64,000 bases of DNA from Hymenobacter siberiensis (lineage in GTDB: Bacteria > Bacteroidota > Bacteroidia > Cytophagales > Hymenobacteraceae): NCBI RefSeq assembly GCF_018967865.2, contig NZ_JAHLZY020000001.1, forward strand, positions 3,224,001-3,288,000. Reading direction: 5' to 3'. The translations under genes and the position numbers were made by a program. A model generated the notes under the pieces. That model was not told where the DNA came from and did no database searches. It saw only the letters and a list, made by a program, of their open reading frames with translations. This document shows positions 9,353 through 23,106 of the stretch, one piece after another. The stretch's first letter is position 1. Each line of letters opens with the position of its first letter.

Positions 9353-12300
9353 CTACCTCTGCGCCGCCTCAATGGCCAGCTGCAACAGCGCCGAGCGCAC
9401 GCCCAAATCGCTCAGCTTGTTATTCCGACGCGTGGGGTGCACGCGGTTGGTGAGCAGCACCACCACCAGGTCCTTCGCCGGCTCTACCCAGAAATAGGTG
9501 CCCGTGAAGTCAGTATGGCCGTAGCTGCCGGGCGAAGCACTTTTGGCCGAGTTCACGGTGGGGTTGGCGGCGGGGCGGTCGAAGGCCAGGGCGCGGCGGT
9601 TGTCGGGGCAGAACTGGCAGCGGGTCCAGTCGGCCAGCATTGTTTTGTCGAAGAGCTGCTGACCGCCGTAGCGCCCGCCCCAGGCGTAGGTCTGGGCCAG
9701 CTTGGCCACGTCGTTGGCGTCGCCAAACAGGCCGGCGTGGCCCGAGAGGCCGCCCAGCAGCGCCGCGCCCTCGTCGTGCACGGTGCCGTGCAGCAGCTGC
9801 CGCCGGAAGGCCGAATCTACTTCGGTGGGCACGATGCGCTTGATTGGAAAGCGGTTCAGGGGCCGGAAGCCCAGCGTACTGGCGCCCAGCGGGCCATATA
9901 CTTCGCGCTGTAAAAAGGCATCGAACGACAGCCCCGTGCGGGCCTGCACCAGGGCCGGATACAGGACAAACGACAGGTCGGAATACACGTAGCCCGGCTT
10001 GGCATTCAGCGGCGACGCCCCAATGGCCTGGTAAAGACGCGTTGGCATGTCGCGGCGGGCCCACAGCCCCCGCGCCGCCGGCAGCGGAAACCGAGCCGAT
10101 GAATCGGTGCGGAAAAACCGGCGGCGCAGGTCGCCATTTCGCTTCACAAACGTTTTCCAGAACGGAATCCAGGCCTGCAGGCCCGCCTGATGAGCCAGTA
10201 CATCACGCATTTTCAGCGGGGCTTTGTTGGTGCCGCGCAGGAAGGAGAAGTAGTTGCCCAGGGTACTGTCGGGGCTGAATTTCTGGTCGCCTTCGAGCCG
10301 GAGCAGCGCGGGCGTGGAGGCCAGCAGTTTGGTCATGGAGGCCAGGTCGTAGAGGTCGTCGTTCTGCACGGGGCGCGGGCTCGTCAGTAATGAGGATGAG
10401 GAAGCAAGCGTACGTTTTTTCTCCATTCTCGCGGCCTTTCTGGCGGCTTTTTTGGCTTTCAACGTCACCGGCTGCTCGCCCCCCTCCAGGCCGGCGAAGC
10501 CCGCATATGTTTGATTGCCATAGCTTTTGCGCAGCACCACCGTGCCACGCCGGGCAATGAGCACCTGCGCCCCCGGAAACGCCTGGGCCGCCAGCGCCCG
10601 GCCCACGAGGCTGTCCACCCGGGCTTCGAGGCGGCCGTCCATATCCACATCCTCGGGGTTGGCGTAGCGCAGGCGGAAGCCGGCGGCCGTGCGCAGGCCA
10701 AAGCCGCGCGGGTACTTGCTGCTCACCGTAACCGGCAGCTGGCCCGTGGCCGCGATACCGCCAAAAATGGCCTGCGCGGCCAGATTCTGGGCATTGGCGC
10801 TTTCCTGGTACGCCAGCACCACGGCGGCGGCGCGGTCCAGGTCGCGCACCTTATCCACGGCATAGGCCGAGCCAAATACGCTGATTACCAGCGCCTGCTT
10901 ACGGTCCATCAGCTCCCGGAGCAGGGTGTTTTCCTCGGGCGTGATGCCGAAGCTGGTGGCCGGCAGCCGGCCCAGGTTTTGCAGCGCCACCAGCACAAGG
11001 TTGTAGGGCCTGAGGGCCGCCCGCAGCTGGGCCAGCTCGTCGAGCGAGGGCATGGCCGGGAGGTGGAAATGCGCGGTTGGCGCGTAGTCGGCCACGGCTT
11101 TCTGGAAGTCGGTGGTGTCGCGTGGGGAACCGCCCAGCACCAGCGTAGCAATGCGCAGCGTGTCGAGCCGCTGGAGCGGCAGCAGGCTCTTCTGGTTGCG
11201 CAGCAGCGTGATGCTCAGCTCGGTGAGGCGGTGGCTGAGGTACTGAGCGTGCGGGCCGTTCAGGTCTTCGTAGAGGTTTTTGGTATCGATGGGCCGGTAG
11301 TGGTTCAGGCCAGCCCAGTGCTTGAGGGCCAGCACGCGGCGGCAGTGCTCATCGATTTCCTTCTGCGAAATCCGGCCGCTGTCCACCGCAATGCGCACCA
11401 TCTTGAGGGCCAGCGGAATGTTCTTGCTGAACTCCAGAATGTCGTTGCCGGCCATGATGGCGCGCACATCGGCCTCGCCGGGCGGAAACATGCTGATAAC
11501 GCCGCGCATGTTCATAGCATCAGTGAAAATCAAGCCTTTGAAGCCCATTTCCTCGCGCAGCACGCCCGTGATGATGGGCCGCGAGAGCGTGCTGGGGCCG
11601 TACACCGTGTCCAGGGCCGGCACGTTGAGGTGGGCCACCATCACGCCGCCCAGCCCGCCGGCCATGAGGCTGCGGAAGGGCGGCAGCTCCAGCGTATCGA
11701 GGCGGCGACGGTCCACGCGCACGGTGGGCAGGGCCAGGTGCGAATCGGCATCCACGTCGCCGTGGCCGGGGAAGTGCTTGGCCACGGCCAGAATGCCGGC
11801 ATCCTGCATGCCGCGCATGTACTGGCGACCGTCGCGGGCCACGGCGGCGGGGTTTTCGCCCCAGCTGCGGAAGCCGATGACGGGGTTGGCCGGGTTGTTA
11901 TTCACATCGACCACCGGCGCGAAGTTGACGTGCATGCCCAGCCGCTTGAACTGCCGGGCTACTTCGTGGCCCATGTCGTAGAGCAGGGCGGTATCGGTTT
12001 CGCCGCCCAGGCTCATCTGGTAGGGGAATTTCACTACGCTATCCAGGCGCATGCCCACGCCCCACTCGCCATCCAGGGCCACCAGCAGCGGCACGCGGCT
12101 CTGGCTCTGGTAGCGGTTCAGCAGGCGCGCCTGCCGGCCGGGACCACCCTGGAAAAATATCAGCCCGCCAATGCCGTACTGCTGAATGAGCATCGAAATC
12201 GAGTCCTCATCAATGCGCTTGCGGTTGGAGTAGGCGGCTACCATAAAGAGCTGCGCGGCCCGCTGGTCGGGTGTGAGCACGCGCATCAGGCTATCGACCC

Positions 12301-12565
12301 AGGGCGAATGCAGGTAGCGGGTGAACGCGGGGGCACCAGCCGCCAGTTTTTTCTGCTCAAGGGCGGCCTGCGCGGCGGCGCGGCGGGCCGCCTCTACGCG
12401 AGGTAGGGCGAGGCGGCGCACGGGGCCTTGCGGCCGGCGCTGGGCCGAAACTAGAACAGGAGCTGCTAACAATGACAGCAGCAGGAAAATCCGGAGAAAT
12501 GGCAAGGGTGGGAAGCTATAGTTTATGCGAAAGTAGCGCTTACAGGCGCTTTGCGTTTTCAGCAA
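9353..12565 (-). CDS. GH3 beta-N-acetylhexosaminidase-like / serine hydrolase fusion
   Basis: About 1070 residues with a signal peptide ending VLVSAQ. Residues ~60-420 form a GH3 catalytic domain of the NagZ type: VAKHFPGHGDVDADSH around residue 265 carries the conserved catalytic His region and FTDAMNMRGV the nucleophile Asp. A GH3 C-terminal-like domain follows. From about residue 660 a beta-lactamase-fold serine hydrolase begins, with SMTK (SxxK) near residue 743 and YSDLSF as the second motif. This fusion is recurrent in Bacteroidota and suggests coupled cleavage of amino-sugar glycosides and peptides or esters, perhaps peptidoglycan, in the periplasm. The start is uncertain: 12565 is TTG, and another TTG lies about 22 codons downstream, just before the hydrophobic core. 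Confidence 0.88.
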   Translation of the reverse strand: MLKTQSACKRYFRINYSFPPLPFLRIFLLLSLLAAPVLVSAQRRPQGPVRRLALPRVEAARRAAAQAALEQKKLAAGAPAFTRYLHSPWVDSLMRVLTPDQRAAQLFMVAAYSNRKRIDEDSISMLIQQYGIGGLIFFQGGPGRQARLLNRYQSQSRVPLLVALDGEWGVGMRLDSVVKFPYQMSLGGETDTALLYDMGHEVARQFKRLGMHVNFAPVVDVNNNPANPVIGFRSWGENPAAVARDGRQYMRGMQDAGILAVAKHFPGHGDVDADSHLALPTVRVDRRRLDTLELPPFRSLMAGGLGGVMVAHLNVPALDTVYGPSTLSRPIITGVLREEMGFKGLIFTDAMNMRGVISMFPPGEADVRAIMAGNDILEFSKNIPLALKMVRIAVDSGRISQKEIDEHCRRVLALKHWAGLNHYRPIDTKNLYEDLNGPHAQYLSHRLTELSITLLRNQKSLLPLQRLDTLRIATLVLGGSPRDTTDFQKAVADYAPTAHFHLPAMPSLDELAQLRAALRPYNLVLVALQNLGRLPATSFGITPEENTLLRELMDRKQALVISVFGSAYAVDKVRDLDRAAAVVLAYQESANAQNLAAQAIFGGIAATGQLPVTVSSKYPRGFGLRTAAGFRLRYANPEDVDMDGRLEARVDSLVGRALAAQAFPGAQVLIARRGTVVLRKSYGNQTYAGFAGLEGGEQPVTLKAKKAARKAARMEKKRTLASSSSLLTSPRPVQNDDLYDLASMTKLLASTPALLRLEGDQKFSPDSTLGNYFSFLRGTNKAPLKMRDVLAHQAGLQAWIPFWKTFVKRNGDLRRRFFRTDSSARFPLPAARGLWARRDMPTRLYQAIGASPLNAKPGYVYSDLSFVLYPALVQARTGLSFDAFLQREVYGPLGASTLGFRPLNRFPIKRIVPTEVDSAFRRQLLHGTVHDEGAALLGGLSGHAGLFGDANDVAKLAQTYAWGGRYGGQQLFDKTMLADWTRCQFCPDNRRALAFDRPAANPTVNSAKSASPGSYGHTDFTGTYFWVEPAKDLVVVLLTNRVHPTRRNNKLSDLGVRSALLQLAIEAAQR

Positions 12566-14415: not shown

Positions 14416-14454
14416 AGCTTATCATGTTCGCATCATGCCCGGGTAGTAGGTTTG
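14416..14454 (+). promoter_or_regulatory. Operator-promoter module A (ATCATG direct repeat + TAGGTTTG)
   Basis: A direct repeat ATCATG-TTCGC-ATCATG (14421-14437) preceded by AGCTT, then 9 bp, then TAGGTTTG (14447-14454), a match to the TAnnTTTG -7 box. The two half-sites are 11 bp apart, one helical turn, as expected for an OmpR-family response regulator dimer. An identical arrangement with the same 9-bp gap lies at 17075-17113. It precedes the operon of a His-rich protein, response regulator and kinase, implying autoregulation. Confidence 0.7.
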
Positions 14455-14584
14455 GCGGTTGCTACTGCCGGGTGCCTCCATTTATCGCCAGGCTTCTGCC
14501 GCTTGCCGGGTTGGCACGGTGCTGGCCGCTGTAATTTGCTCAGGCATACGGCACGCCTGCTTTTCCTGTCTTACTGCATTTGCT

Positions 14585-14908
14585 ATGAAACGCACACTTT
14601 TTTTTATACTGAGCCTGGGGTTGCTGTCGGGTGCGCAAGCGGCGGCGGCGCGTCCGCTGTGGGGCGGCTTGCCTGTGCAGCCGGCGCAAACCGGGCCGGT
14701 ACCCACACCCGCGCCAGCTCCCGAGCCGCCGGTGAAGGCCGTGCCGCTTAGCGGCCACCAGCCCAAGCCCCAACGCGTGGGCGACGACGGCCTGCCCACC
14801 GACCACCCCAACGGCCCGAACCAACCCAACCACGGCCGCCAGGCGGGCCGGGCAGCCCACCACGCCCACGGCCCGGGTCCGAGCCACGGCCACGGCCGCC
14901 GTCATTAA
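14585..14908 (+). CDS. Small Pro/His-rich secreted protein
   Basis: 107 residues. A signal peptide (MKRTLFFILSLGLLSGAQA) is followed by a Pro-rich stretch (PTPAPAPEPP) and a His/Gly/Asn-rich tail ending HHAHGPGPSHGHGRRH. No family is recognised. Clustered His in an exported peptide suggests binding of metal ions such as Cu, Ni or Zn in the periplasm, but this is inference. The stop is 21 bases before the response-regulator start, so it is probably the first gene of an operon with the two-component system. Operator module A lies 131 bases upstream. The ATG at 14585 was chosen because the signal peptide begins there. Confidence 0.72.
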   Translation: MKRTLFFILSLGLLSGAQAAAARPLWGGLPVQPAQTGPVPTPAPAPEPPVKAVPLSGHQPKPQRVGDDGLPTDHPNGPNQPNHGRQAGRAAHHAHGPGPSHGHGRRH

Positions 14909-14929
14909 TTAGCTCCCCCCAAGCGCCGC

Positions 14930-15604
14930 ATGACCGTTCTCATCGTCGAAGACGAACGCACCCTGGCCCGCGAGCTGGGCATTTTTCTCTATCAGCAGGG
15001 CTTTGCCTGCACGGTGGCCCGCACCGCCCGCGAGGCCCGCGCCCAGCTGGCCGATACGCCCTTCGATTTTGTGCTGCTCGACCTGGGCCTACCCGACGGC
15101 GACGGCCTGGCCCTGCTGGCCGAGGCCAAGCAGCAGGAGCTCGCGGCGGCCGTCATCATCCTCACCGCCCGCGGGGCCGTGGAAGACCGCATCAGTGGCC
15201 TGGAGCTGGGCGCCGACGACTACCTGGCCAAGCCCTTTTCGCTGCCCGAGCTGCTGGCCCGCATGCACGCCATCACGCGGCGGCGCTTCGGGCTGCACAA
15301 GCCGCTGGCGGCGGTGGGCGCGTTTGAGCTCGATTTGCAGGCCCGCCGGCTGCTGTTTGGCGGGCAGGAGGTGAGCTTATCGGTGAAGGAGTTCGACGTA
15401 TTGAGCTACCTCGTGCTGCACAAAAACCGGGTAATGACCCGCCTGCAGCTCACCGAGCACATCTGGGGCAACCTGCCCGAGTCGGGCTTCGATTCGAACT
15501 ACATTGATGCCCACATCAAAAACCTACGCAAGAAGCTGGGCCTGCACGCCGACGTGGACTGGCTCGAAACCGTGCGCGGCATCGGGTACCGGGTGCGGGT
15601 GTAG
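14930..15604 (+). CDS. OmpR/PhoB-family response regulator
   Basis: 224 residues. The receiver domain spans 1-115, with the acidic pair in LIVEDE, phospho-acceptor Asp51 (LLDLGLPDGDG), Thr in ILTARG and Lys in LAKPFSLPELLARM. The winged-helix DNA-binding domain spans ~125-224, with recognition region FDSNYIDAHIKNLRKKLG and the closing wing GIGYRVRV. It should be phosphorylated by the kinase encoded 126 bp downstream and bind direct repeats as a dimer. The two ATCATG repeats at 14421 and 17080 are the natural candidate sites. Receivers of this type often pair with metal- or envelope-stress-sensing kinases such as CusS. Confidence 0.95.
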   Translation: MTVLIVEDERTLARELGIFLYQQGFACTVARTAREARAQLADTPFDFVLLDLGLPDGDGLALLAEAKQQELAAAVIILTARGAVEDRISGLELGADDYLAKPFSLPELLARMHAITRRRFGLHKPLAAVGAFELDLQARRLLFGGQEVSLSVKEFDVLSYLVLHKNRVMTRLQLTEHIWGNLPESGFDSNYIDAHIKNLRKKLGLHADVDWLETVRGIGYRVRV

Positions 15605-15608
15605 GATT

Positions 15609-15681
15609 CTGGTTGTTGGTGCCTGGTGCCTGGTGCCTGGTTGTTGGTGCCTGGTGCCTGGTGCCGGGTGCCTGGTGCCTG
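15609..15681. repeat. GGTGCCT tandem repeat between regulator and kinase
   Basis: A low-complexity run made of the 7-mer GGTGCCT, interrupted by GGTTGTT and one GGGTGCC variant. It contains two copies of a ~29-bp unit. It starts just after the response-regulator stop codon and accounts for most of the 126-bp gap before the kinase gene, where tight coupling would be expected. Confidence 0.85.
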
Positions 15682-15730
15682 ACCAATTAAAGAACGTCCT
15701 ACCCTCATACCCGCCACCCTCCGACCCCCC

Positions 15731-17074
15731 ATGAAGCTCAGCACCAAGTTTTCCCTGTTCAATGCCGTGTCGCGGGTGGTTATTCTGCTGGTGCTGGCGG
15801 GGGCGCTGCCGCTGGCTATGAGCCACCTGGCCCGGCTGGCCACCGACCAGCGTCTGGCCCAGAAAAAGGAAAAAGTGCTGCGCCTGCTGCGCCGCAACGG
15901 CATTTCGGCTTTCATCACCGCCGAGCAGTCTTCCTATGGCAGCTACAACCTACTCAAGGAGGAGTTTATTTCGCTGGAGGCTATTCCGCCCGGGCCGGGC
16001 ATCAACGAGATTGAGGACTCGAAGCGGGCCGTGGAGGATGAAATTGTGGAGTACCGGGTACTGAGCTACGCCTTCGCCCAGGATGGCCAGAACTACCTGC
16101 TCGAAATAGGGCGCAGCACGGGCAGCATTGGCGAAACGGAGCGCAACTTCCGCCACTACGCGCTGTACATGCTGCTGGTGGCCGTGGCCCTGACCACGCT
16201 GGCCGATGTGGCCTTCTTCCGCTATCTGCTGGAGCCGTTCTACACCATTATCCGGCAGCGACTCAAAAATGCCCACCACCCCGCCGCGTTCAACTTCGCG
16301 CCCATTAAAACCAGCACCGACGACTTTCGCTACCTCGACGAGAGCCTGCGCGAGATGATGACCACCATCCAGGCCTCGTTCACGAAGGAGCGCAAGTTTA
16401 TCGCGGATGCCTCGCACGAGCTGCTCACGCCTCTGGCCGCCCTGCAGTACCGCTTCGACAACATGCTGGCCGATGAGTCGCTATCCGATGAAAACCAGCT
16501 GCGCGTGGTGGATTCGCAGCGCACGGTGCACCGCCTGCGCACCATCATCAGGTCGCTGCTGATGATTTCGAAGATTGAGAACGACCAGTTTGCCCGCGCC
16601 GAAACCGTGCCGCTGGCTCCGCTGGTGGCCGAAGTATGCGACGAAGTGCAGGACCGCCTGGCCGTGCTCGGCCTGACCCTGCACCAGGACCTGACGCCCG
16701 ATTTCACCGTGCTGCACGGCAACCGCAGCCTGCTCTTCACGCTGCTCTACAACCTGGTGAGCAACGCCATCAAGTACAACCGGGCCGGGGGGCGCATCGA
16801 CGCGCGGGGCCGGCCCACGCCCGGCGGTGGCTACGTGCTCGAAGTGCGCGACACCGGCGTGGGCATTGCCCGCGAGCAGCTGCCGCGCCTGTTTCTGCGC
16901 TTCGACAAGGGGGCCACGGCCGACCCCGACAGCTACGGCCTGGGCCTGAGCATTGCCCGCACCATTGCCGACCTGCACGGCATCAGCCTCGAAGTCAATT
17001 CAATTGAGGGGCTGGGCACGTCGTTTTTGCTCGGTTTCCCGGCCCCGGCTCCGGGCCTGGCCGAGCCGTTATAG
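15731..17074 (+). CDS. Two-component sensor histidine kinase
   Basis: 447 residues. Membrane segments lie at ~13-33 and ~141-163 and enclose a ~105-residue periplasmic sensor region, with a short juxtamembrane linker after the second. The dimerisation domain carries the phospho-acceptor His229 in DASHELLTPLAALQYR. The ATPase domain has the N box (YNLVSNAIKYNRAGG), G1 (VRDTGVGIA) and G2 (YGLGLSIARTIADLHG). It pairs with the response regulator upstream. The periplasmic part contains no obvious His cluster or metal-binding motif, so the signal is unknown. The TAG stop is directly followed by operator module B, one base later. Confidence 0.95.
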   Translation: MKLSTKFSLFNAVSRVVILLVLAGALPLAMSHLARLATDQRLAQKKEKVLRLLRRNGISAFITAEQSSYGSYNLLKEEFISLEAIPPGPGINEIEDSKRAVEDEIVEYRVLSYAFAQDGQNYLLEIGRSTGSIGETERNFRHYALYMLLVAVALTTLADVAFFRYLLEPFYTIIRQRLKNAHHPAAFNFAPIKTSTDDFRYLDESLREMMTTIQASFTKERKFIADASHELLTPLAALQYRFDNMLADESLSDENQLRVVDSQRTVHRLRTIIRSLLMISKIENDQFARAETVPLAPLVAEVCDEVQDRLAVLGLTLHQDLTPDFTVLHGNRSLLFTLLYNLVSNAIKYNRAGGRIDARGRPTPGGGYVLEVRDTGVGIAREQLPRLFLRFDKGATADPDSYGLGLSIARTIADLHGISLEVNSIEGLGTSFLLGFPAPAPGLAEPL

Positions 17075-17113
17075 AGCTTATCATGTTCGCATCATGTTGG
17101 AAAAGTAGGTTTG
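17075..17113 (+). promoter_or_regulatory. Operator-promoter module B (second copy)
   Basis: Same layout as module A: AGCTT, ATCATG-TTCGC-ATCATG (17080-17096), 9 bp, TAGGTTTG (17106-17113). The 22 bp from AGCTT through the second ATCATG are identical to module A, while the 9-bp spacers differ (cccgggtag versus ttggaaaag). That conservation argues for selection on a protein-binding site. It drives the two His-rich mini-genes, starting 30 bp before the first ATG. Confidence 0.72.
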
Positions 17114-17143
17114 AGCCATCATCAACCCCAAACCCATTTCCCC

Positions 17144-17284
17144 ATGAAAAAGCTGATGCTTTCCGCCGTTGCCATGCTGTGGACGTTTGCTGCCCTGGCC
17201 CAAGCTACCCCTCACACCGGTGGCCACCACGGCGGCCATCATGGCGGGCACCACGGCCACCACGGCGGCCACAAAACCAAGTAA
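17144..17284 (+). CDS. His/Gly-repeat secreted mini-protein
   Basis: 46 residues. A signal peptide (MKKLMLSAVAMLWTFAALAQ) leaves a mature peptide of ~26 residues made almost only of GGHH repeats (HHGGHHGGHHGHHGG) ending KTK. The repeat density suggests metal chelation in the periplasm; this is inference. It is too short for most gene callers, but start, signal peptide, promoter and paralogue downstream all support it. The N-terminus is nearly the same as that of the next gene (MKK, L/M-S-A, AML, TFAA, AQATP), so the two arose by duplication followed by divergence of the tail. Confidence 0.75.
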   Translation: MKKLMLSAVAMLWTFAALAQATPHTGGHHGGHHGGHHGHHGGHKTK

Positions 17285-17356
17285 GCCAACCCGACGGGCG
17301 CTGCAACGCCCGGCCAGCTCATTGCCCATTTCTTCCCATTCATTTTTTTGATTCCC

Positions 17357-17560
17357 ATGAAAAAGTATCTGATGTCCGCTGCTGCCATGCTGTGCACCTT
17401 CGCCGCTATGGCCCAGGCTACGCCTGCCACCCCCGCTACCCCGGCTACGCCAAACCCCACCCATGCTGACGGCAAGCAAGGCGGCCACAAGGGAAGTCAC
17501 AAGGGCATGCACAAGGGCAACCACAAAGGCAACCACAAGGGCATGCACGGCACCCGTTAG
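17357..17560 (+). CDS. His/Lys-repeat secreted mini-protein
   Basis: 67 residues. A signal peptide (MKKYLMSAAAMLCTFAAMAQ) is followed by an ATP repeat (ATPATPATPATP) and a tail of HKG units (GGHKGSHKGMHKGNHKGNHK) ending MHGTR. The tail alternates His, Lys, Gly and occasional Met, a composition compatible with metal binding or with interaction with anionic surfaces. It is a paralogue of the 46-residue gene 72 bp upstream and is closed by a strong terminator, so the two form a short transcript of their own under module B. Confidence 0.75.
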   Translation: MKKYLMSAAAMLCTFAAMAQATPATPATPATPNPTHADGKQGGHKGSHKGMHKGNHKGNHKGMHGTR

Positions 17561-17580
17561 GTTTTTGCCTCACGGCCAAA

Positions 17581-17609
17581 GCCCCTTCGCTGCGCGAAGG
17601 GGCTTTTTT
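17581..17609 (+). terminator. Rho-independent terminator
   Basis: Arms GCCCCTTCG (17581-17589) and CGAAGGGGC (17595-17603), loop CTGCG, then six T. It ends the His-rich mini-gene pair and separates it from the gene at 17635. Confidence 0.9.
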
Positions 17610-17634
17610 CGGTTATTTATCTTCCCGCTTTCAC

Positions 17635-18501
17635 TTGCTTCTGCTTTTCTCCTTGGGTTCTTTTTTTCGCTCATTCGCCGCAGCCGCTTTGCTGGCCGCT
17701 GGCCCGCTGGCGGCGCAGGCTGCCTTGCATTTTCCTGCCCCGGCCCCCGCCGACACCACCGATGCGCCGCGCCGCTCACTGAGCGCGGCACTCAGCTACG
17801 GCAGCAACTCCACGTACTTCGGGCGCTCGCAGGCAGTTGCCTTTCCCTACACGGCCGCCATGCTCACCTATTCGGCCAAAAACGGCCTGTACGGCTCGGT
17901 AGAACTATATAACCTGCTGAACACCGCCACTGCCCTCGACGAAACCGACCTGACCGTGGGCTGGGACCACGACCTGGGCAAAACCCTGGATGTATCGCTC
18001 AGCTATTCGCGGTTCTTCTTCCCCACGGGCAGCGAGCTGGTGAAATCGGGCGTGAACAATGCCTTCGATGCCGGACTAGGGCAGGATTGGGGCGCGTTTT
18101 ACTCGCGGCTGAGCGCCACCTACCTCTTCGGCAAAAGCACCGCCAAGGGCGACGGCTTTCTGGTGCTGGAAAACTCCCGCTCCTTCGAAACCAAGCGCGG
18201 CTTTGGCCAGCACGACTATTTCAGCGTCGAGCCGGTGGTGAGCATCGCGGCCGGTACGCAGTCCTTCACCGAAGCGGCCCTGAACAAGCGCAACGGCCCG
18301 GCTTCCGCCGCCGCCAAAAACCGCAACGTGCGCCGGTTCGGCATCGTCGATTACGAGTTTGGTGTGCCCGTGACTTACACCGTGGGCAAGCTGGCCGTGT
18401 CGGCCGGCTGGCGCTACGTGGTACCCGTGAACCTGCCCGCCGATGATGTGGACTCGCGGGCCCTGTCCATCTGGACGGCCGGGCTCACCCTCACGCTGTA
18501 G
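17635..18501 (+). CDS. Outer-membrane beta-barrel-like protein
   Basis: 288 residues with a signal peptide ending PLAAQA. The mature chain alternates short hydrophobic/aromatic strands (LSAALSYGSNSTYFG, GLYGSVELYNLL, DVSLSYSRFFF, FSVEPVVSIAAG) and ends in a strand LSIWTAGLTLTL, as expected of an outer-membrane barrel. No specific family is recognised. The start is uncertain: 17635 is TTG and no in-frame ATG lies near it. It follows the terminator of the His-rich genes, so co-regulation with them is possible but not shown. Confidence 0.65.
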   Translation: MLLLFSLGSFFRSFAAAALLAAGPLAAQAALHFPAPAPADTTDAPRRSLSAALSYGSNSTYFGRSQAVAFPYTAAMLTYSAKNGLYGSVELYNLLNTATALDETDLTVGWDHDLGKTLDVSLSYSRFFFPTGSELVKSGVNNAFDAGLGQDWGAFYSRLSATYLFGKSTAKGDGFLVLENSRSFETKRGFGQHDYFSVEPVVSIAAGTQSFTEAALNKRNGPASAAAKNRNVRRFGIVDYEFGVPVTYTVGKLAVSAGWRYVVPVNLPADDVDSRALSIWTAGLTLTL

Positions 18502-19376: not shown

Positions 19377-21197
19377 ATGAAAAAACTTGCCCTGGCCGGC
19401 CTTGTCGCGGCCGCCCTCACCACGGCCTGCAACCAGACCAAAACCACCGAGACTGCCACGAGCAGCGCCAACAACGAAACGGGAGCCGCCGCCGACTCGA
19501 CCTCGGGCCTGCCGGGCCTGTTCAACAGCTACTGGGAAAAGCAGTCGCGCCTCGACCCGTTGTCGGCCACGGCGTATGGCGACAACCGCTTCAACGACCA
19601 GCTGCCCAACAACCAGACCCGCGCCTTCCGCGACACGCTGCGCACCTTTTACCAGGGCTACCTCACGCGGCTGCAAACATTTGACCGCGAGAAGCTGAGC
19701 GACAACGATAAAATCAGCTACGACATCTTCGAGTACGAGATGAACCACGGCCTGGCCGGCCTCAAGCTCAACTCCTGGATGATGCCGGCCAACCAGTTCT
19801 ACGGCCTGCCCATCTCACTGGGCCAGTACGGCTCGGGGCAGGGCAATCAGCCTTTTAAGACGGTGAAGGATTACGAGAACTGGCTGGGCCGGGTGCGCGG
19901 CTTCACGGCCTGGACCGACTCGGCCATTGCCAACTTCCGGGTGGGCATGCGCACGGGCGTAGTGCTGCCCAAGGTGCTGGTGCAGCGCATGATACCCCAG
20001 CTGCAGGCCAAAGACATTGTGGTGACCGACGCCACCCAGAGCCTGTACTACGGCCCCATTACCCGCCTGCCCAAGGATTTTTCGGACGCTGATAAAACCC
20101 GGCTCACGGAGGCCTATAAAAAGGCCATCCTGACGGAGCTGGTGCCCGCCTACCGAAAGCTGGGCACGTTTATGCAAAACGAGTACCTGCCCAAGGCCCG
20201 CGCCACGAGCGGCATCGACGCCGTGCCCGGCGGCAAGGAGATGTACGCCTACGACGTGAAGTACGAGACAACGACCGACAAAACGCCGGCCGAAATCTAC
20301 CAGACCGGTTTGAGCGAGGTGGCCCGCATCCGAGCCGCGATGGAGAAAGTCAAGGCCGAAGTGGGCTTCAAAGGCGACCTGCCGGCCTTCTTCAAGTACC
20401 TGAATACCGACGCCAAGTTCCGGCCCTACAAGAAGCCGGAGGAAGTGCTAGCCGCCTTCGAAGACATCCACCAGCGGATGCTGCCCAACCTGCAGAAGAT
20501 GTTCGGCCGCACGCCCAAAACGCCGTTTGAAATTCGCGAGACCGAGAAATTCCGCGAAGCCTCGGCCTCAGCCGAGTACAACCAAGGCTCGCCGGACGGC
20601 ACGCGACCGGGCATTTTCTACGTGCCGATTCCGGACGCTACCAAGTTCGCTACTACCTCGGGCATGGAGTCGTTGTTTCTGCACGAAGCCATTCCGGGCC
20701 ACCACTACCAGATTTCGCTGCAGCAGGAAAACACCGGCCTACCCAAGTTCCGGCGCTTCGGCGGTCAGAATGCCTACGTAGAGGGCTGGGCGCTGTACTC
20801 GGAAAGCCTCGGGCCGGAGCTGGGCCTGTTTAAAGACCCCTACCAGCGCATGGGCGCCATGGGCGACGAGATGCTGCGCGCCGTGCGCCTGGTGGTGGAC
20901 ACCGGCCTGCACTCGCGCCAGATGACCCGCGAGCAGGCCATCGACTACCTGCTGGCTAACCTGAGCACCACGCCCGACGAGGCCACTTCGGCCATCGAGC
21001 GCTACATGGCCATCCCCGGCCAGGCGCTGGGCTACAAAATCGGTCAGCTCAAAATCCGGGAGCTACGCGCCAAATACGAGAAGCAGCTCGGCAGCAAATT
21101 CAACCTCAGCACCTTCCACGACGAGCTGCTGAAGGATGGCTCGATGCCGCTGGCCGTGCTGGAAAAGAAAATGGACGCCTGGGCGGCAAAACAATAA
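19377..21197 (+). CDS. DUF885 peptidase-like lipoprotein (paralogue 1)
   Basis: 606 residues with a lipoprotein signal (GLVAAALTTAC; Cys ~21). The DUF885 domain fills the rest. Its zinc-peptidase-like motif is LHEAIPGHHYQ, with His near residue 439, followed by the conserved GWALYSESLG and the C-terminal AIERYMAIPGQALGYKIG. The family is related to zinc carboxypeptidases (M32-like fold) and usually predicted to be periplasmic. Paralogues lie at 21322 and 32382. It opens a long same-strand series of peptidase genes and a peptide transporter, consistent with digesting oligopeptides. Its actual activity is not known from sequence. Confidence 0.9.
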   Translation: MKKLALAGLVAAALTTACNQTKTTETATSSANNETGAAADSTSGLPGLFNSYWEKQSRLDPLSATAYGDNRFNDQLPNNQTRAFRDTLRTFYQGYLTRLQTFDREKLSDNDKISYDIFEYEMNHGLAGLKLNSWMMPANQFYGLPISLGQYGSGQGNQPFKTVKDYENWLGRVRGFTAWTDSAIANFRVGMRTGVVLPKVLVQRMIPQLQAKDIVVTDATQSLYYGPITRLPKDFSDADKTRLTEAYKKAILTELVPAYRKLGTFMQNEYLPKARATSGIDAVPGGKEMYAYDVKYETTTDKTPAEIYQTGLSEVARIRAAMEKVKAEVGFKGDLPAFFKYLNTDAKFRPYKKPEEVLAAFEDIHQRMLPNLQKMFGRTPKTPFEIRETEKFREASASAEYNQGSPDGTRPGIFYVPIPDATKFATTSGMESLFLHEAIPGHHYQISLQQENTGLPKFRRFGGQNAYVEGWALYSESLGPELGLFKDPYQRMGAMGDEMLRAVRLVVDTGLHSRQMTREQAIDYLLANLSTTPDEATSAIERYMAIPGQALGYKIGQLKIRELRAKYEKQLGSKFNLSTFHDELLKDGSMPLAVLEKKMDAWAAKQ

Positions 21198-21223
21198 GAA
21201 GTAGACACCTAAATATGTATGCC

Positions 21224-21262
21224 AAAAAGCCTCGCCCGGATTATTCCGGTGCGGGGCTTTTT
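21224..21262 (+). terminator. Rho-independent terminator
   Basis: An AAAAAGCCTCGC / GCGGGGCTTTTT stem with inner CCGGA/TCCGG pairing, ending in T residues. It separates the first two DUF885 genes into different transcription units. Confidence 0.85.
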
Positions 21263-21321
21263 AGCATAAAAAAGGGAATTCCACGCCTATTTATGTAGCT
21301 TGCCCGCCTATTCACCGGTCA

Positions 21322-23106
21322 ATGACGCGACTTTTTACTATCCTGCTGGCCGCATGGTGCTTAGTAGCCCACCCGGCCGAAGCCCAACTTTCGCCGGGCA
21401 ACTCCACTTCGGCGGCGCTGCTGACGGGCCTGTTCAACGATTACTGGGAGGGCCGGGCGCGGTTGTTCCCATTGGTGGCCACGTCGCAGGGCGACAACCG
21501 CTACAACGACCGCCTGCCCAACGACCAGACCCGCGCCTTCCGCCAGCAGCAGGTGCGCTTCTATCGCCGCTACCTCAACGACCTGCTGAACATTGACCGC
21601 GCCCGCCTCCGGGCCGACGACAAGCTCAGCTACGACATCTTTCAGTACGAGATGCGCAGCCGCATCGAGGGCCTGCGGCTGAATACCTGGATGATGCCCT
21701 TTGCCCAGTTTTACAGCCTGCCCACCACGCTGAGTCAGCTGGGCGCGGGCACCGGCGCGCAGCCCTTCCGCACCGTGCGCGACTACGACAACTGGCTGGC
21801 CCGCGTGGGCCGATTCCCGGTGTGGGCCGACTCGGCCATCGGCAATTTCCGGCAGGGCATGCGCACGTCCATAGTATTACCCCGCGGTTTGGTGCAGAAA
21901 ATGGTACCCCAGCTGCAAGCCCAAATCACCGCCGACGCCACCAAAAGCCTGTTCTACGGACCCATCACGCGCTTGCCGGCCAGCTTCTCGGAGGCCGACC
22001 GCGCCCGCCTCACGGCCGCCTATCAGCAGGCCATTGCCACGCAGCTGGTGCCCACCTACCGCAAGCTGGCCGAGTTCCTGCAGACCGAGTACCTGCCCCG
22101 AGCCCGCAGCACCGCCGGCCTGGCCGATGTGCCCGGCGGGACCGAGATGTACCGCTACAACGTGCGCCTGATGACGACCACCGAGCGCCCGCCGGAGGCC
22201 ATTTACCAAACCGGTCTGGTCGAGGTGAAGCGCATTCGGGCCGCGATGGAGGCCGTGAAAAAGCAGGCCGGCTACAAGGGCAGCCTGTCGGGCTTCTTCA
22301 ACTCGCTCGCTTCCAATAGTAAGTACACACCCTACAAGTCGCCGGAGGAAGTCCTGAAAGCCTTTCGGGGCATTCAGGCCCGCATCACGCCCAGCCTGCC
22401 CCGGCTATTTGGTCTGGCCCCAAAGTCGCCGTTTGAAATCCGGCAGACCGAAGCCTTCCGGGCCGCCACGGCCTCGGCCGAGTATAACCGCGGCACGCCC
22501 GACGGCTCGCGGCCGGGCATTTTCTACGTGCCCATTCTCGACGCGACCAAATTCAACGTTACCTCGGGCATGGAGTCGCTGTTTCTGCACGAGGCCATTC
22601 CCGGGCATCACTACCAATTGTCGTTGCAGCAGGAAAACACCGGCCTGCCCAAGTTCCGGCGCTTTGCCTCCTACCCGGCCTTCAGCGAGGGCTGGGCGCT
22701 GTATTGCGAAAGCCTGGGGAAAGAGCTGGGCCTCTACACCGACCCCTACCAACGCATTGGCGCGCTGGGCGATGAGATGCACCGCGCCCTGCGCCTGGTG
22801 GTGGATGTGGGCATGCACGCCAAAGGCATGAGCCGCGAGCAGGCCATCGACTACATGATGGCCAACGAGCCCATTTCGGAGCAGTCCGCCACGGCCGAAA
22901 TAGAGCGCTACCTAGCCATGCCCGGCCAGGCGCTGGCCTACAAAACCGGCCAGCTCAAAATCCGCGAGCTGCGCAGCCGCTACGAAAAGCAGATGGGCAA
23001 AACATTCAGCCTGAAGGCTTTTCACGATGAGATTCTGGCCGGCGGCTCGATGCCCCTGGCGGTGCTGGAGCGCCGCATGGACGCCTGGGCGGCCCGGCAG
23101 CGCTAA
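21322..23106 (+). CDS. DUF885 peptidase-like secreted protein (paralogue 2)
   Basis: 594 residues. An ordinary signal peptide ends AEAQ, rather than a lipoprotein signal. The DUF885 core keeps LHEAIPGHHYQ (His near residue 423), GWALYCESLG, and the terminal EIERYLAMPGQALAYKTG. It is collinear with the proteins at 19377 and 32382 almost from end to end, including GTPDGSRPGIFYVPI. Retention of all motifs argues that each copy is functional. The different signal suggests a soluble periplasmic location against membrane anchoring of paralogue 1. Confidence 0.9.
   Translation: MTRLFTILLAAWCLVAHPAEAQLSPGNSTSAALLTGLFNDYWEGRARLFPLVATSQGDNRYNDRLPNDQTRAFRQQQVRFYRRYLNDLLNIDRARLRADDKLSYDIFQYEMRSRIEGLRLNTWMMPFAQFYSLPTTLSQLGAGTGAQPFRTVRDYDNWLARVGRFPVWADSAIGNFRQGMRTSIVLPRGLVQKMVPQLQAQITADATKSLFYGPITRLPASFSEADRARLTAAYQQAIATQLVPTYRKLAEFLQTEYLPRARSTAGLADVPGGTEMYRYNVRLMTTTERPPEAIYQTGLVEVKRIRAAMEAVKKQAGYKGSLSGFFNSLASNSKYTPYKSPEEVLKAFRGIQARITPSLPRLFGLAPKSPFEIRQTEAFRAATASAEYNRGTPDGSRPGIFYVPILDATKFNVTSGMESLFLHEAIPGHHYQLSLQQENTGLPKFRRFASYPAFSEGWALYCESLGKELGLYTDPYQRIGALGDEMHRALRLVVDVGMHAKGMSREQAIDYMMANEPISEQSATAEIERYLAMPGQALAYKTGQLKIRELRSRYEKQMGKTFSLKAFHDEILAGGSMPLAVLERRMDAWAARQR

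Follow-up and report, generated by a model that had tools for sequence, protein, structure and literature searches.

A probable self-regulated envelope module of small basic exported proteins and a predicted outer-membrane barrel in Hymenobacter siberiensis and its relatives

Introduction

Two-component systems of the OmpR/PhoB type (PmrA, CpxRA and the PhoB subfamily among them) join a receiver and winged-helix regulator to a HisKA/HATPase kinase, and tandem direct repeats about 11 bp apart are usual at the target promoters of the OmpR family. Here we analyse a locus of Hymenobacter siberiensis (genome 4.83 Mb) that shares this regulator, this kinase architecture and an 11-bp direct repeat over a promoter, but differs in its gene set, which is new. 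Within a stretch of 64 kb, called the window throughout, a response regulator (RR) and a sensor histidine kinase (HK) lie together with three genes for small exported proteins (the mini-genes) and, directly downstream of a terminator, a gene for a predicted outer-membrane beta-barrel. The original prediction, made from the DNA letters, overlooked the barrel; its inventory of the remaining genes and elements (operators A and B, the 107-, 46- and 67-aa genes, RR, kinase and terminator) was recovered in full, each where it had been placed. It proposed a self-amplifying circuit whose whole response is to buffer metal with His-rich peptides, and held that no system of this shape had been described; in line with the latter, we found no paper on this module in the open-access literature.

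Several known systems resemble parts of the locus. Hpn, Hpn-like and other His-rich metal-storage proteins have comparable short His/Gly-rich repeats; Hpn and Hpn-like proteins are cytoplasmic, whereas the mini-proteins here carry signal peptides, and their His-richness is not kept in relatives. The barrels KdgM/NanC, FapF and PcoB resemble the 12-strand fold predicted here and have 5–13% identity to this barrel; FapF is an amyloid exporter, a barrel with periplasmic parts whose amyloid substrates are encoded in its operon. Among two-component systems, the kinase best matches the model of the PorY family (224 bits, not reaching the cut-off of 350), PorX/PorY being the pair that regulates the type IX secretion system (T9SS) in Porphyromonas and Flavobacterium. 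PorX has a PglZ domain and lacks a DNA-binding motif of canonical type, and its gene is not linked to porY (PMC10951265), whereas the regulator here is of OmpR type and adjoins the kinase. The RR domains, the gene linkage and the kinase score below the PorY cut-off rule out membership of PorXY. Finally, the acid-shock protein Asr of Escherichia coli is likewise small, exported, basic and of low complexity; it is described as a disordered chaperone that contributes to outer-membrane integrity (PMC10746267). It differs in that a barrel is linked here and in that the 67-aa protein scores 18.1 against the NF033636 cut-off of 50 bits, so that by analogy Asr would be the closest functional counterpart and not a relative.

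We consider it rather probable that the locus represents a dedicated, self-regulated envelope module, in which small exported basic proteins of low complexity are combined with a 12-strand barrel, and which recurs across Hymenobacteraceae and beyond.

Results

Gene content and order in relatives

A kinase search of 200 family genomes returned 29 genomes with a match of at least 70% identity (the window's own included; in G193 over the core only, where the match at locus L091 lies in two separate pieces), all other listed matches being at 50% or below. Together with the window, the 28 loci fetched form a set of 29 ortholog loci. Since loci were picked by a kinase or a barrel match, adjacency counts here and below do not describe a random sample. 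Barrel, RR and HK are present in 29/29 and contiguous in that order in 23, the barrel being placed elsewhere in the window, L064–L067 and L079. The usual arrangement in relatives is an operator followed by one or more small exported proteins, then barrel, RR and HK; where read gene by gene (L068, L071–L076, L078, L085, L087, L088 and L091), the small proteins are M1 (about 130 aa, motif NHGQxVxxxAxxTxLTGADKGAAxS) and M2 (motif PPVKAVPxxxRKxKPQRV), and we read M1–M2–barrel–RR–HK as the ancestral order. Given this gene order, the window locus is best read as a rearranged member, which would have kept M2 beside the regulator–kinase pair and carry shrunken M1-like genes behind the kinase with an operator copy, the barrel following after.

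Barrel profiles extended the comparison to 30 of 291 genomes of the order and, with a broader profile, to 28 of 395 genomes of the phylum. Barrel, RR and HK are contiguous in 7/7 loci of other genera (L105–L111), 4/4 of a second family of the order (L112–L115) and 6/6 of another family of the class (L217–L222), all fetched by barrel match, and a small exported basic protein precedes them in the loci read, L220 not being among these. Kinases of other genera are, G035 apart, less than 51% identical to that of the window, and a kinase tree with long branches leaves unsettled whether these kinases are orthologs or correspond to a Hymenobacter paralog, for which the neighbouring barrel is the better guide. 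Barrel homologues that carry an organism name come from Pontibacter, Rufibacter, Nibribacter, Belliella, Cecembia and Aquiflexum, among others, and are mostly annotated as hypothetical.

A related regulator–kinase pair lacking a barrel (45–50% kinase identity) occurs at G000:C1:2570299-2571639 (L094), L092 and L093, with small basic exported proteins after the kinase in the latter two. A gene of the ApbE type (FMN transferase) lies between an operator-like repeat and the small protein in L217, L218 and L221, with Pfam confirmation for L221.

A dedicated operator and promoter

Operators A and B (GCTTATCATGTTCGCATCATG) are identical over 21 bases, each with TAGGTTTG 9 bases downstream. The 19-base operator core has 2 matches in the window at up to three mismatches, against 0.00 expected from 100 shuffles, and the full pattern WTCAT-N6-WTCAT-N10-TAGNTTTG is matched twice in the 4.83-Mb genome, each time at the locus, against no match for the reversed control pattern. 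In Flavobacterium the main sigma factor has TAnnTTTG as its −7 consensus (PMC9723704), and between 14301 and 18700 on the + strand the only two such boxes are those behind operators A and B. Two further sites with three mismatches were rejected as regulon members in the window genome, as they fall, by eye, in hairpin repeats. Hairpin repeat elements (GTCATCCTGAGC...GGTCCTTCGC) at L003 and L004 hold an operator-like 19-mer in the loop.

The geometry is rigid in relatives. Across 52 loci (643 kb), the repeat WTCAT-N6-WTCAT is followed by TAnnTTTG 33 times, in 27 loci and always on the operon strand, and the spacing is 10 nt at all 33 sites although 4–24 were permitted; 20 of the 29 ortholog loci have the full operator form. 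Searched across the genus, a 36-base operator pattern (up to three mismatches) occurs in 26 of 120 genomes, with no control matches. In the 116 genus genomes covered by both searches, 24 have both operator and HK ortholog, 4 the HK ortholog only, 2 the operator only and 86 neither (Fisher 1.4e-18). The co-occurrence in relatives that the original prediction called for thus holds for operator and HK ortholog (24/26 operator genomes, 24/28 HK genomes) and fails for His-richness, which is local to the window's clade. In other genera of Hymenobacteraceae the half-site is TTCAT, with 40 sites in 37 of 200 genomes, 39 of which lie 2.5–3.9 kb upstream of the kinase on the same strand (the exception, in G066, is 26.5 kb away); among 84 other-genus genomes the site is found in 37/48 with a kinase match and 0/36 without. 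TTCAT-N6-TTCAT is retained in the second family of the order, with no clean −7 box, and in the other family of the class (f23) a repeat stands upstream of the first gene, with the same 10-nt spacing and TACTTTTG in L221 and a box that is not clean in L217–L220.

A self-regulated circuit is well supported by these patterns. As the dedicated operator precedes both transcription units, it is probable that the regulator controls its own operon; of the self-amplifying circuit first proposed, this much stands, and the positive feedback itself is an extrapolation from it.

Further operator copies were seen in relatives. In L068, L071, L072, L073, L075, L076 and L080, the operator repeat occurs a second time 3' of the kinase, its −7 box being imperfect, before secreted proteins (ORFs, that is, open reading frames, of 307–923 aa) instead of mini-genes; by eye, the ends of these proteins resemble T9SS sorting tails, which fits a surface- or envelope-directed response. 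At L085:4295 (oriented), an extra operator and −7 box precede an exported protein of 139 aa that resembles neither M1 nor M2. In G152 (L145), whose genome has no HK ortholog, an operator with three mismatches stands before a large secreted protein.

The small exported proteins are basic and very likely coding

Among the 187 ATG ORFs of 40–110 aa in the window, a signal-like N-terminus together with at least 8% His selects three, which are exactly the three mini-genes. Differences at codon positions 1/2/3 number 7/4/16 (window against L067) and 11/9/24 (against L119) for the 46-aa gene, 9/7/14 (against L065) for the 67-aa gene and 10/11/25 (against L065) for the 107-aa gene; the weakest third-position bias, 25/21/27, is that of the 67-aa gene between L065 and L067. 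The nonsynonymous rate (dN) is below the synonymous rate (dS) in 11 of 11 pairs computed, ten from the three mini-genes and one from the barrel. From the third-position bias and dN < dS, the mini-genes are therefore very likely coding. That they might instead be untranslated, their His repeats a by-product of GC-rich repeat DNA, could draw on their shortness, their low complexity and the weak codon-position bias of one pair, but most pairs show the bias, signal peptides, starts and stops are kept, a promoter with an operator lies upstream and no other ORF among the 187 passes the same filter, so that we regard this as very improbable.

Composition was compared over 44 listed small proteins, taking residue 21 as the mature start. 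All 44 are basic (isoelectric point 9.2–12.0, net charge +2 to +20). His content by contrast ranges from 0% (the second protein of L105, and L112–L115) to 41% (a 47-aa protein of L065); it is about 38% in the mature 46-aa peptide of the window and 0–11% in the corresponding listed proteins outside the window's clade. The constant features are thus the barrel and the basic exported proteins, and His-richness is variable; on the best reading, the small proteins shrank and turned His-rich in one Hymenobacter clade.

No part of the small proteins is retained more widely than the M2 motif, which reaches another family of the class. A single search expression found it in 30 of 62 loci, window included, and missed it in 16 of 46 full-set loci, some of which are contig ends and in some of which inspection by eye shows the motif or a variant of it (L110, L217, and L067 read through L151); the consensus of M2-type proteins, also by eye, is near [VI]K[EAVS]V[AP]xxx[RKH][QK]xKPx[RK][VI]. 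No clear M2 motif is seen in L112–L115 of the second family. For M1, a search of 5.8 billion proteins that favours close relatives gave 34 relatives at E 0.001, and all of those with a named organism are Hymenobacter. The 107-aa and 46-aa proteins have no NCBIfam match, and weak Pfam matches of the small proteins, all under cut-off, were taken as chance. A terminator between M1 and M2 as a means of over-expressing M1 was rejected: 11 of 12 full gaps have no hairpin with a T-run, one has a weak candidate (L088), and a hairpin scan of the 160 nt after M1 in L082 gave no match.

Regulator, kinase and sensor domain

The pair has the hallmarks of an OmpR-family two-component system. The RR comprises Response_reg and Trans_reg_C domains with D51 and K101 invariant in 18 regulators, and beside it stands an HK with HisKA and HATPase_c (Pfam) in which H229 is invariant in 40 kinases. 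Among the best 25 of 105 NCBIfam models none reaches its cut-off, PmrA being the best of the OmpR/PhoB type (188 against 330). Scores for the heavy-metal models are 144.1 bits against 279.2 for the RR (TIGR01387) and 107.4 against 292.55 for the HK (TIGR01386). Conserved His and Cys are absent from the sensor domain; apart from M30 at the membrane boundary, no alignment column holds His, Cys or Met in 10 or more of the 40 kinases. Acidic residues are frequent in it (17 in 110), with D39, E78 and E125 invariant in the 40 kinases. No solved sequence that matches the kinase at E 1e-10 spans the sensor and the kinase core fills the fold-search list, which gives no ground for proposing a new fold.

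These results bear on the proposal that the locus answers metal (Cu, Zn, Ni or Co) by flooding the periplasm with His-repeat peptides. The window's His-rich peptides invite it, but the low His content of the corresponding proteins outside the clade, the sensor residues and the model scores speak against it, as do a barrel poor in His and Met (3 and 2 in 282 aa) and the five scanned flanking genes, none of which is a transporter. The last point agrees with the original prediction, which had noted the lack of an efflux pump or metal transporter at the locus; peptide buffering as the whole response, however, is not supported, given the barrel found in every ortholog locus together with the His content, sensor and heavy-metal scores. 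A metal response is thus unlikely as an account of the locus, and a metal-resistance system as its general explanation was rejected on His content, sensor residues, model scores and flanking genes. The 46-aa peptide of the window may itself bind metal, as a local specialisation and not as part of the core.

The acidic sensor also raises the idea that exported M2 is a feedback or signal ligand whose basic motif binds the Glu/Asp-rich domain and tunes signalling, as CpxP is a feedback ligand for CpxA. The wide retention of the motif and the three invariant acidic residues are in keeping with this. Set against them are the loci that the motif search missed, the lack of a clear motif in L112–L115 and the weakness of charge complementarity taken alone as an argument, and we would give such a ligand only a small chance.

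The predicted outer-membrane barrel

Fold comparison of the barrel places KdgM first by Z with NanC close behind, and the scores of many further 12-strand barrels are only slightly lower. Sequence identity is 8–13% to KdgM, NanC and PcoB and 5–6% to FapF; the five barrels scanned have no Pfam match, and the score against the TorF-porin model is 15.4 where the cut-off is 47.15. The ranking would suit solute uptake, in which a charged substrate would pass through the barrel as a KdgM/NanC-like channel and be sensed by the kinase, with the small proteins as accessories. The near-equal scores of so many other barrels weaken this, and the operons read contain no enzyme or inner-membrane transporter save the ApbE-type gene of the class-level loci; since it also leaves the small proteins unexplained, we find it unlikely. 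Export of the small proteins to the surface through the barrel for matrix assembly, in the manner of FapF, is more doubtful still and in our judgement improbable, as hydrophobic residues are scarce in the small proteins and the comparison covers the barrel fold only.

Features of the locus and its surroundings

Coordinates are collected in Table 1. Counterparts of the terminator occur in L065, L067 and L119 (by script) and L064 and L066 (by eye). Tandem GGTGCCT repeats lie at window positions 15612–15682 in the RR–HK gap, where spacing differs among relatives. The flanking scan, which covered five genes and left out the rest of the window, found no transporters. Elsewhere in the window, two neighbouring DUF885 genes at 19377–23106 are probably a tandem duplication, and a single ORF on the − strand (9353–12565) fuses a part of glycoside hydrolase family 3 to a beta-lactamase-type part.

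Table 1. Features of the H. siberiensis locus in their order along the + strand, window positions 14417–18501.
Feature	Position	Strand	Basis or remark
Operator A	14417..14437	+	Direct repeat ATCAT-N6-ATCAT, 11-bp period; same geometry in relatives
−7 promoter box TAGGTTTG (Bacteroidota TAnnTTTG)	14447..14454	+	10 nt past second ATCAT
M2, 107-aa exported Pro/His-rich protein	14585..14908	+	Conserved motif PPVKAVPxxxxxPKPQRV
OmpR-type response regulator (RR), 224 aa	14930..15604	+	Domain models, alignment
Sensor histidine kinase (HK), 447 aa, PorY-like	15731..17074	+	Predicted alpha/beta periplasmic sensor
Operator B, identical to operator A	17076..17096	+	Sequence match
−7 promoter box TAGGTTTG	17106..17113	+	10 nt past second ATCAT
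46-aa exported His-rich mini-protein, GGHH repeats	17144..17284	+	ORF, codon comparison
67-aa exported His/Lys-rich mini-protein, HKG repeats	17357..17560	+	ORF, codon comparison
Terminator hairpin with T-run, between mini-genes and barrel gene	17578..17606	+	Hairpin scan
Outer-membrane 12-strand beta-barrel (predicted), 282 aa	17653..18501	+	Alternative TTG start at 17635

Discussion

The self-regulated envelope module that we favour would work as follows. The phosphorylated regulator would bind the direct repeat and activate its own operon and the mini-genes, activation being suggested because the repeat takes the place in which a −33 element would lie; activation of both promoters would then produce positive feedback. 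The exported basic, presumably disordered proteins, made in bulk, may act on the outer membrane or cell surface as protectors in the way of Asr, with the barrel as their putative partner in the outer membrane or as their channel. The ancestral operon would have split in two in the clade of the window, and the first small protein would have shrunk to 46–67 aa and gained its His-richness, a change that may add binding of metal or protons.

Several observations weigh against this reading. The barrel of the window stands past the terminator and has neither an operator nor a TAnnTTTG box of its own, so that its co-regulation there is no more than a possibility. Twelve of the 62 loci have a barrel and no RR/HK, nine of these being weak matches, and L119 (G065) keeps a 47-aa His-rich mini-gene and the barrel in the absence of RR and HK, behind CTCAT-N6-TTCAT-N10-TAGGTTTA. 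Nine of the 29 ortholog loci lack the full operator form: L077 and L081 are contig ends, the first half reads GTCAT in L069, L070 and L078, the site is degenerate in L080, L084 and L086, and at L087 no operator was seen. The TTCAT site is likewise missing in 11 of the 48 other-genus genomes with a kinase match, and G124 and G152 carry an operator with three mismatches and no HK ortholog. As to function, the regulator could be an activator or a repressor, its sign of action being deduced from the position of its site, and the protective role of the small proteins draws on composition and analogy.

A bolder version, which we put forward tentatively and think unlikely, is a widespread signalling module of the Bacteroidota, so far undescribed, in which the acidic sensor kinase reads the M2-type protein, a basic ligand or effector encoded by the module itself, through or at the partner barrel. 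Such a module would form a closed loop for envelope sensing with hardly any target outside itself, and the clade of the window, with its His-rich peptides, would have a re-tooled version that couples the loop to metal or pH.

With the self-regulated envelope module as the favoured reading, a recurring and uncharacterised module of the Bacteroidota gains definition, namely a regulator with a predicted DNA site and a predicted regulon of two promoters in the window genome, together with a barrel and small exported proteins of basic character, for which scanned members give no Pfam match that exceeds its cut-off. The locus shows that peptides rich in His can emerge next to a regulator even though the relatives of that regulator accompany proteins that are not His-rich, and the general form of the finding is more interesting than the form first proposed. 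With only its own genes as predicted targets, the regulator would offer an unusually clean system in which to ask what a Bacteroidota envelope kinase senses.

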